Positions 1,697-5,448 of a stretch of 64,000 bases of DNA are shown here, in pieces (positions within the stretch are counted from its first letter, which is position 1; every line of letters begins with the position of its first letter). The DNA comes from Deltaproteobacteria bacterium (GTDB lineage: Bacteria > Desulfobacterota > Syntrophobacteria > Syntrophobacterales > Thermodesulforhabdaceae). The position numbers were made by a program, and so were the translations under genes. The DNA is taken from positions 1 to 64,000 of the forward strand of contig JAFDGW010000007.1 in NCBI GenBank assembly GCA_019309115.1, given 5' to 3'. Below the pieces are notes generated by a model. That model was given only the letters and a program-made list of their open reading frames with translations, did no database searches and was not told the origin of the DNA.

Positions 1697-1995
1697 GGAC
1701 AAAGTCATGGACAAAGTGGACAAAGATGACAAAGCTATTTCCCACTTTGTCCCAGGCATAAGTACCTGCAAACACTAGAGAAATGTAAGGTCATGGACAA
1801 AATGACAAAGTATTCTATACCTTATTCTAACGAGAAAAAAAGAGAAGGAGCAGGTATATATAGGGGGGAGGGGGAGATAGAAAAGTATATTATAACTTTG
1901 TCCATTTTGTCCTTTTGTCCTTTTCCCAGTAATTTCAAGCATTTAGCAAAGGACAAAGTCTTTTCCTCTTTGTCCTAACTTTGTCCACTTTGTCC
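1697..1995. repeat. Iteron-like cluster, candidate replication origin
   Basis: About 14 copies of a 9-base word, GGACAAAGT or its complement ACTTTGTCC, some with one mismatch. Direct-orientation copies start at 1697, 1709, 1718, 1728, 1795, 1804 and 1951. Inverted copies start at 1744, 1895, 1904, 1913, 1968, 1978 and 1987. They form two groups on either side of bases 1812-1894, which are mostly A+T-rich apart from a G-run near 1863-1875. This layout is that of iteron origins used by plasmid, SaPI and P4-like primase-helicases, and the primase-helicase gene begins 400 bases downstream. The repeats are seen directly; the origin role is inferred. Confidence 0.6.
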
Positions 1996-2403: not shown

Positions 2404-4986
2404 ATGCCTACTCAGGTTATTAATCGAGATGATGTACAAAAATTCCTAAATATGCTTTTTCGAAGCCCCGATGATGTGAGGGAATTTAGAGCATTTTACA
2501 AGTCGGGTGAGGTTCAGGTAGGTTATTGCAGAGGTTTTGAGATAGACTTTTTTATAGGTGATACCTTAGTGGAAGCTGTCAGAAAAGGCGCGGAAATTTA
2601 CGTAACGGCAAATCCTGTAAAAACAGAGCGTTACAGCAAAAGCCCAAAGGGGTTGCGAAGGAGAACCAAAGCTGTTTGTGATGATGACATTGTAAAATAT
2701 CAGTGGTTGTTCATTGATGTTGATGCAGAGCGGCCATCTGGTGAATCTGCTACAGAGGAAGAGAAGCAGGCGGCATGGCAAGTTACCCGTAGCCTTGTTG
2801 ATTTTTGCAGGAAGATGGGATGGCCTGAGCCTGTCATTGTCGATTCGGGAAATGGCTATCATATCCTGTGGCTTGTTGATTTACCAAATACAGAAGAAGT
2901 TCGGCATCTTATTCGATGTGTTCTGAAGATTTTTGATTCCATGTTTTCAACAAATGGGGCGAAGATAGATATGCAGGTTGGGAACCCTTCCAGGTTGATT
3001 AGGATTGCAGGTACATTAAATTGCAAGGGTAGCAATACGAAAGACCGTCCCTGGCGAATGTCCAGGATTATTTCCATTCCTGACAATCTGGAAGAGGTTT
3101 CTTTAGAAAAGTTGGAGGCATTAGTTCAGGAATATCATCTAGAGGTTTTAGAACAAAAATCTGATTCTGAATTGAAGACAAAACCGGTTTTTACGAATCT
3201 GGGGAGGGATGAATTACAGGCTATCTTAGAAGAAAAAGTAGGTATTCACAGGATTAAAGACCCTTACGGAAAAGGAGGGGTTCTTTTTGTTTTGAAGAAA
3301 TGCCCGATGGGTAAAAAACATGATGTAGATTATGGAACCTTCGTCATTTTATCACCAGACGGTAGTCTTGTAGCAAAGTGCCATCACAACACTTGTAAGG
3401 GCAAATGGACTGCCGAAGATTTCTGTCGCAAGCTTGATATTCCTTTCAAGAAAATAACGGGGCAGAAAAATCAGGCAGATGTTCTTCTTGAGCTAATTTT
3501 TGAGGAAGATGTGGAGTTATTCCACACTCCAGAAAAAGAACCCTTCGCCCGTGTTCCTATCTTCAAGGAAGGGAAGATTTCTCATTATGAGGTAATTCCA
3601 TTATCGAGGTTGAATCCCTGGTTACAGGGGTTTTTCTTCCAGAAAACTGGTAAGGCTGTCAATAACCAAGCTTTATACAATGCGAAGGGGGTTCTGGAGG
3701 CGACAGCACTGTACGAAGGGCCTACACGGGATGTTTATTTGCGCGTGGCTGGGAAAGGTAATTGTATATTCCTCGACCCTGGTTGGGATGATAGGACAGT
3801 TATAAAAATTTCAACCACAGGTTGGGAAATCGTAAATGACAATGATGTGGATGTTTATTTCGTCAGAGCTGCTGGAATGAGGAGTCTGCCAATGCCTGCA
3901 GAGGAAGGGGACATAAGTCTTCTCAGGCCATACATAAACGTGAAAACGGAGGAGGATTTTGTCTTGATTTGTGGGTGGAGTTTGGGGGGTTACTGCCTTT
4001 GGGGTCCAAAGCCGCCTCTAATCCTGCAGGGGGAACCAGGGTCATCAAAAACGACAACAGCGAAAATTTTGAGAAGCTTGGTTGACCCACACATTTCGCC
4101 TGTGCGAACAGTTCCAGGCAATGAGGATAATCTTTTTATTACAGCAAAAAATAATTGGGTTTTAGCACTTGATAATCTTTCGGGGATTCCACTGTGGCTC
4201 AGCGACGCCTTGTGTCGGTTGTCAACAGGTGGTGGCCTGAGCAAAAGGCGCCTTTACACTGATACTGAAGAAGCCATTGTTGATGTAAAAAGACCCGTGA
4301 TTATTACTGGCATTGACCTATCGGCTATGCGTGCTGACTTACTAGACCGGGCATTGGTGATTGAGCTGGAGCCAATTCCACCTTCGGCTCGTATTGCTGA
4401 ATGTGATTTACTAAAAGCATTTGAGGAAGATAAGCCAAAAATTTTCAGAGCACTGCTAGATGCCGTCGCAGAAGGACTGAAGAACAAAAACAGTGTGAAG
4501 TTGGAAGAAGTCCCAAGGATGGCTGATTTCTGTTCATGGGTGGTTGCCTGTGAGTCTGCTTTGGGCTGGGGGGAAGGAAGATTTATGCAGGCATATACTC
4601 GAAGTAGGCATGAAGCGGCTGTTAATATGCTTGCAGGCGATATTTCTATTTTTGTTCTAGAGAATTACTTGAACAAGTGCGGTGGTGAAATCGAAGGTAC
4701 TTCATCAGAAATCTGCCACATACTGAGGACTTATGCACGGGAATCGCTGGGGGTTGACCCCTACAAAATTCCTGGAAGAATTGGCGACAAACTTAGAAGC
4801 TATCGGAAAGACTTAGAGGAACATAAAGGGATACACATAGAAAAAAGAAAAACCAGTAGAGGAAGAACCTACAGAATTTGGAAGGAAAGGGCTCGGCCAT
4901 TAAGTGACTGCCCCCTCCCTTCGTCAGATACAATAGACATCAACAGTTGTGCAAAGTTTTTAGATGAATCACAGTTCACAAATTAG
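2404..4986 (+). CDS. Primase-helicase replication protein of an integrated element
   Basis: An 860-residue replication protein. The N-terminal archaeo-eukaryotic primase domain shows the catalytic pair in WLFIDVDAER (about residue 100), SGNGYH (about 148) and NPSRLIRIAGTLNCKG. A cysteine-rich segment with KCHHNTC sits near 325. The C-terminal ATPase has Walker A GEPGSSKTT (about 543) and Walker B WVLALDN (about 585), then a likely winged-helix tail. This order matches primase-helicases of plasmids, P4-like satellites and SaPIs, which open iteron origins and prime synthesis. I chose ATG 2404 because GGAGGTGAT sits seven bases upstream; a TTG at 2374 would precede that site. With the repeat cluster upstream it suggests an autonomous replication module. 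Exact family is uncertain. Confidence 0.8.
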   Translation: MPTQVINRDDVQKFLNMLFRSPDDVREFRAFYKSGEVQVGYCRGFEIDFFIGDTLVEAVRKGAEIYVTANPVKTERYSKSPKGLRRRTKAVCDDDIVKYQWLFIDVDAERPSGESATEEEKQAAWQVTRSLVDFCRKMGWPEPVIVDSGNGYHILWLVDLPNTEEVRHLIRCVLKIFDSMFSTNGAKIDMQVGNPSRLIRIAGTLNCKGSNTKDRPWRMSRIISIPDNLEEVSLEKLEALVQEYHLEVLEQKSDSELKTKPVFTNLGRDELQAILEEKVGIHRIKDPYGKGGVLFVLKKCPMGKKHDVDYGTFVILSPDGSLVAKCHHNTCKGKWTAEDFCRKLDIPFKKITGQKNQADVLLELIFEEDVELFHTPEKEPFARVPIFKEGKISHYEVIPLSRLNPWLQGFFFQKTGKAVNNQALYNAKGVLEATALYEGPTRDVYLRVAGKGNCIFLDPGWDDRTVIKISTTGWEIVNDNDVDVYFVRAAGMRSLPMPAEEGDISLLRPYINVKTEEDFVLICGWSLGGYCLWGPKPPLILQGEPGSSKTTTAKILRSLVDPHISPVRTVPGNEDNLFITAKNNWVLALDNLSGIPLWLSDALCRLSTGGGLSKRRLYTDTEEAIVDVKRPVIITGIDLSAMRADLLDRALVIELEPIPPSARIAECDLLKAFEEDKPKIFRALLDAVAEGLKNKNSVKLEEVPRMADFCSWVVACESALGWGEGRFMQAYTRSRHEAAVNMLAGDISIFVLENYLNKCGGEIEGTSSEICHILRTYARESLGVDPYKIPGRIGDKLRSYRKDLEEHKGIHIEKRKTSRGRTYRIWKERARPLSDCPLPSSDTIDINSCAKFLDESQFTN

Positions 4987-5372
4987 ACACAAAAATCTGC
5001 AAAAAAACCTTTTCATGGGGGGTATATCCCCCCAACATCCTTACAAAAATGCACCATTCACTTACATTATAATCCAAAATAACACATCCTGCTAACCATT
5101 GTCCAGGTTTTTCATTCCTACCTAAGTCATTGAAATAATTAAACTTCTGCAAGGCTGTGTGTTTTGTGTAAGGTGTTGAAATCGTTAGGATTTTGTATTT
5201 CCAGCCCCCATGATGGACACAGGGGGTGGGGTATATGTATTGTTGTGGTGTGCTGTCAATGTGTTCCTCACACATAAGAGACCCAAGAGGAGAAACATAC
5301 ACTTTTGGGCGCCTAATGGGCGCTCACTGAATTTTGCTGATTACTTGTTCAGTTCTAAGTTATTGATTTTCT
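4987..5372. other. Gene-free stretch between primase gene and tRNA-Ala
   Basis: About 385 bases with no supported gene. It contains a perfect hairpin, six G, TATAT, six C (5017-5033), without a following T-run, and a direct repeat of GGGCGC near 5308-5325. If the element was inserted at tRNA-Ala, its right junction should lie at the end of this stretch. I see no second copy of the tRNA 3' end in the window. Confidence 0.4.

Positions 5373-5448
<76 letters not shown>

Follow-up and report, generated by a model that had tools for sequence, protein, structure and literature searches.

A mirrored iteron array upstream of a primase-helicase gene as the probable replication origin of an integrated tRNA-Ala-borne island

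The 64-kb stretch of DNA analysed here (henceforth the window), which starts at a contig end, carries a dense array of short repeats ahead of a gene for a primase-helicase. Judging from the way arrays of this kind accompany the same gene in related elements, from the predicted fold of the protein and from the likeness to characterised systems, the repeats very probably serve as the origin from which an integrated mobile island, borne by a tRNA-Ala gene, is replicated, with the protein encoded at 2404–4986 as its self-loading initiator.

The preliminary description had counted about 14 copies of one word, in both orientations, within some 300 bases. With the GAC core fixed and two mismatches allowed, 14 iterons with a GACAAA core were indeed found on both strands at 1696–1996, seven of them exact copies of GGACAAAGT, five with one mismatch and two more degenerate. 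As had also been proposed, they are split around a segment of special character: the left half (1696–1810) has the orientation ++++-++ and the right half (1896–1996) ---+---, with about 85 bp between them. The two halves mirror each other groupwise, in that each has an outer group, one opposed copy and an inner group. On the left, the outer group (1696–1753, + strand) has iterons at 1696, 1708, 1717 and 1726 and an opposed one at 1745, and is followed by an inner pair at 1794 and 1802 (1794–1810, + strand). On the right, an inner group of three iterons at 1896, 1905 and 1913 (1896–1921, - strand) precedes the outer group (1950–1996, - strand), with iterons at 1968, 1979 and 1988 and an opposed + iteron at 1950. 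The outer arms 1707–1725 and 1979–1997 are perfectly complementary over 19 nt.

Chance does not account for this density, in agreement with the earlier judgement. The whole genome (2.51 Mb, 72 contigs) contains 29 exact copies of GGACAAAGT, of which the 22 outside the array are scattered and never clustered, and the word read backwards occurs 41 times. Seven exact copies in 300 bp have a Poisson probability of ~2e-22 at the genome background rate, and the array reaches 13 copies in a 400-bp window, while order-1 shuffles of this locus and related ones, 258 in all, never gave more than 7. P4-type origins (ori1 plus crr), to which the earlier description also compared the form, have two separated essential repeat regions; this is the single array in the assembled part of the island, the left part of which is missing from the assembly. 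At the 3' end of the primase-helicase gene in the window there are no core words except one TTGTCC at 5099.

The spacer between the halves (1812–1894) is a candidate melting or priming region distinguished by a polypurine tract (TTCTATACCTTATTCTAACGAGAAAAAAAGAGAAGGAG...GGGGGGAGGGGG) on the + strand. It had been described as A+T-rich with a G-run. The G-run is present as part of a 54-bp purine-rich tract (score 36; p 0.000 against shuffles and 0.005 against random windows), but the A+T content of 65% is barely above that of the surroundings (GC 0.36–0.40), and it is the purine bias that is distinctive. As to the suggested melting region, the stability of 1812–1861, inside the spacer, falls in the 0.17 percentile of the 64 kb, but the lowest stability of any 50 bp around the array (0.06 percentile) belongs to an A-tract-rich stretch just outside the right half (2012–2061), which is an alternative candidate for the unwinding element.

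The right-hand part of the island comprises, in this order, a MazE/PIN pair, a HicB-like gene, the array, an excisionase-like HTH gene, the primase-helicase gene and the attachment site. The right attachment repeat (5356–5422, 67 bp) consists of the 3' part of a tRNA-Ala gene (5373–5448, - strand) plus 17 bp. A second copy, 96% identical over 67 bp and without the remaining tRNA, lies on another contig (C60:19969–20035, equivalent to L165 5969–6035), and the two copies are oriented as expected for the ends of a single island, the middle of which is missing from the assembly. C60 stops 260 bp past this copy, in the start of a TnpB-like sequence, and the assembled parts of the island showed no integrase. 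Among the smaller genes, a MazE-like antitoxin and a PIN-domain toxin lie at 326–999, and the HicB-like gene is at 1110–1316, with no HicA seen beside it. The palindrome TGAAAGCGCTTTCA, directly before the primase-helicase start (2358–2371), is one of four copies of TGAAAGCGC(T/G)TTCA in the island (the others at 997–1010, 1344–1357 and 1528–1541), and exact copies occur nowhere else in the genome; a repressor of the island probably uses it as its operator. The AlpA/excisionase-like HTH gene (2136–2332, + strand; HTH_17 match below the cut-off) is in two frames, split at TTTTTTTAAAC, where the zero frame reads TTT TTA AAC, that is, a T_TTA_AAC slippery heptamer. The split is possibly a frameshift mutation, an assembly error or a programmed -1 shift.

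Because this gene is frameshifted, the island may be decaying, and the array might be a former origin that now persists as an unused relic. The TnpB-like sequence that interrupts the island end at the end of C60 and the divergence of the left attachment copy point in the same direction. We regard this as unlikely, though deserving of some weight, given that the primase-helicase reading frame is intact (860 aa), that the array has kept its matched arms and is in good condition, and that a frameshift on the slippery heptamer could be programmed.

The primase-helicase gene (rep; 2404–4986, + strand) belongs to the same island and starts about 410 bp from the array, much as the roughly 400 bases first noted. 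Its product is a putative initiator with predicted Prim-Pol, Zn motif, AAA+ helicase and C-terminal winged helix. The N-terminal third contains invariant D105/D107 and D189, together with other conserved residues, and matches the phage primase family phrog_2478 (E 4e-9); the best structure matches of its model, at a mean pLDDT of only 59.6, are Prim-Pol domains. Residues and model both point to an AEP catalytic domain in this protein. Pfam gave no match, and the ATPase scored below every Pfam family cut-off. Residues 357–860 were modelled at pLDDT 91.4, and the model ends in a winged helix, with the C-terminal domain at residues 760–850 approximately. Among PDB structures the SaPI5 primase-helicase fits the model best (7ola, 371 residues aligned at Z 19.5, model range 1–463), followed by poxvirus D5/E5-type helicases and, further down the list, by SCCmec Cch (Z 13.7) and PriRep1 with dsDNA (Z 13.5). 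Since sequence identity to the matched structures is 9–11%, with no detectable sequence similarity to solved chains, these matches speak for the fold and the likely mechanism, not for close kinship.

Single-sequence protein searches of the genome and viral collections gave no relatives, and an alignment-based profile was needed to find them. From the profile search we used 80 genome loci, which were the best-scoring of a longer list and not a random sample, and 41 viral loci, with plasmids as an addition. Arrays were defined by 9-mers found enriched in an unbiased scan, with at least 7 copies and both orientations. By this criterion, 36 of 89 relatives (the genome loci again being the best-scoring of a longer list) carried arrays in the 3' zone of their helicase gene, as compared with 4 of 69 for mid-gene zones and 2 of 86 for upstream zones with the same scan. 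A GAC/GTC core was present in 33 of the 39 enriched words (20% expected). Gene and array thus go together, as their concentration at the 3' zone indicates, and this pairing supports the core of the earlier proposal of a candidate replication origin. The expectation that iterons and primase would be paired in related genomes was borne out as to the gene and the kind of array but not as to their arrangement, given that the arrays are at the 3' end and almost never upstream. Absence of upstream repeats in related primase genes had been put forward as evidence against an origin; it is literally what we see, yet the relatives argue for an origin. The window holds the only clear upstream array among the scanned relatives, and no relative with the same iteron, a rep of the same family and the array upstream was found among them. 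The possibility that the window array is what remains of the 3' end of another rep gene, once present upstream, was rejected, since no such frame was seen and the HicB-like gene alone lies there.

The position just upstream of the xis-rep operon is where autoregulatory sites are expected, and iteron initiators are often self-regulating. The array could accordingly be an operator or copy-control site at which the initiator or another regulator represses this operon. We judge this quite improbable: 14 copies in 300 bp, in mirrored halves around a polypurine spacer, are more than an ordinary operator has, the four-copy palindrome TGAAAGCGCKTTCA is a separate and better operator candidate, and the like arrays of the relatives cannot be the rep promoter, because they are downstream of rep. 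Partition (centromere-like) sites and integrase arm sites also form clusters of short repeats, but such a role is very improbable for the window array, with no ParA/ParB gene in the assembled island part, a distance of 3.4 kb to the attachment site, and arrays that in the relatives track the helicase gene and not the integrase or parA.

Three paralogues of the gene are present in the same genome, on contigs C26 and C27 and, in broken form, on C37. Those on C26 and C27 carry arrays of their own (TGTGACGAT and TGGGACGAT). In both, the iterons lie inside the coding end (L018 9384–9620 for C26 and L017 7452–7850 for C27) and correspond to an Asp-rich protein tail, DDGDDKCDG, so that the origin would here shape the tail of the protein. 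In the C37 paralogue (L019 6800–8687) the primase frame is broken after ~150 aa and is followed by a 471-aa frame with a 3' array of TACGTAAAA. Four other loci (L021, L022, L023 and L024) combine a related N-terminal primase and a different C-terminal half with 3' 9-mer arrays (TGAGCATCT, TGCAGACAT, GTCCCGGTT and TGCTATTTC).

Two layouts can be told apart among the arrays. In most, the halves diverge (--- + -- then ++ - +++) and are found inside the coding end or just past it, as in C26, C27, G003, L044, L063, L072, L073, L077 and L119. The others converge around a spacer; these are the window, Chlorohelix (just past the stop), L074, L092/L120, L111, L118 and the Streptomyces plasmids, including pFP11. 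Shortly past the inner iterons, convergent spacers contain a pyrimidine stretch followed by a purine tract (consensus approximately CTCTnTnnTAAnGAnAAAAAGAAGAGAG), and in 9 of the 9 spacers scored the purine tract is on the rep strand (p 0.001–0.034 relative to random windows taken from the locus concerned). Mapped on a tree of the helicase cores, the convergent label requires about four changes, of which the well supported branches force only one. As the nearest helicase neighbours of the window protein, those on C26 and C27, are divergent, we infer that layout, position and iteron changed together in the window lineage.

Several known systems come close to this organisation. The RepA proteins of pFP1 and pFP11 are reported to bind their own iterons, and pFP11 to replicate in the theta mode (PMC3583192). 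The Streptomyces theta plasmid pFP11 (NC_006911) has a homologous helicase half (30.5% identity over 54%) in a gene that we infer to be the published RepA, and GAC-core iterons (AGGGACGCA) set in convergent pairs on either side of a 66-bp spacer, whose purine tract is on the rep strand. It differs from the window in that the array is 0.55–0.8 kb downstream of the helicase gene, the primase is a separate gene, and the element is a plasmid and not an integrated island. A DNA search of plasmids with the window array returned nothing beyond short chance matches.

In PICI origins two iteron sets flank a putative melting site (PMC6092414). The likeness to SaPI origins that was remarked on earlier holds, with two iteron sets around a putative melting region (purine-rich and moderately A+T-rich in the window), and extends to the integrated island, the xis-like gene before pri-rep and the predicted Rep fold, for which the SaPI5 protein is the closest match. 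The SaPI/PICI origin, however, is immediately 3' of rep, whereas the window array lies 410–710 bp upstream of the rep start, and because this 3' feature is absent we do not file the array as a PICI origin. SaPI Rep and Cch2 bind iterons via their C-terminal domains (PMC7581432). SCCmec shares with the window an initiator helicase, in Cch2 with an iteron-binding C-terminal domain and in Cch with a place among our structure matches, but Cch2 has three 5-nt iterons downstream of cch2, a separate primase and a helicase of a different family. For PrimQH-type AEP primases the winged helix has been suggested to recognise the origin (PMC5862659). Their domain content (AEP, Zn-binding motif, P-loop ATPase and C-terminal winged helix) and their occurrence in tRNA-integrated elements are as in the window, although the window ATPase fits no Pfam family at cut-off.

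By analogy, the window array probably works like a SaPI/PICI or pFP11 origin. The C-terminal winged helix would read the GGACAAAG iterons, as the family pairing, the predicted fold and the pFP11 precedent suggest, and oligomers assembled on the two convergent half-arrays would face each other across the spacer, in keeping with the mirrored layout and with SaPI Rep. The DNA could then open either in the purine-tract spacer (1812–1894) or at the A-tracts (2012–2061). From the domain content, the AAA+ ring would load on the open strands and unwind them, the N-terminal Prim-Pol would prime, and the excised circle would be copied. Covariation of winged-helix residues with iteron bases gave a partial Mantel p of 0.13 and was not significant in independent pairs; the best pairs (a wing Arg with the G before GAC, and, with GACGA, an Asn/Gln where the recognition helix begins) show the expected trend in most of the independent pairs, of which there are too few.

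A widespread but uncharacterised family of initiator-helicases is now paired with recognisable origins, making origin position and initiator specificity predictable in many mobile elements. More tentatively, and with somewhat less than even confidence, a single origin type may run through the primase-helicases of mobile elements across bacteria, in phages and in one or more archaeal plasmids, with mirrored GAC-core half-arrays, usually at the 3' coding end; in one subtype these would surround a conserved purine tract on the rep strand. The window would then represent a module that moved across the gene and changed its iteron. If true, a type of origin that a 2018 description held to be unique to PICIs would prove to be more widely spread.

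A search with the window word also turned up viral contigs in which GGACAA(AGT) arrays, again in both orientations, lie directly 3' of other initiator genes or at their ends, both VapE-type (L295 1547–1769 and L296 3206–3448) and Prim-Pol plus AAA_25 (L294 6313–6647 and L277 3496–3903). The initiator proteins of these four contigs do not resemble the C-terminus of the window protein. As such unlike initiators carry them too, GAC-core arrays may be commoner among primase-helicases than one family. Replacement of the window winged helix by that of a VapE phage, considered in view of the shared GGACAA iterons, was rejected because the similarity was not above shuffled scores; in the same comparison C26 scored 47, the null mean being 28. 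Among the viral contigs with the most GGACAAA, several were discarded as arrays, because the word stood in a single orientation and inside collagen-like coding repeats. Another viral fragment (L211 1943–2282), with no initiator on it, has an array of GGGACAAAGT between small phage-like genes; in the last part of this array two pairs converge on an A+T-rich spacer.
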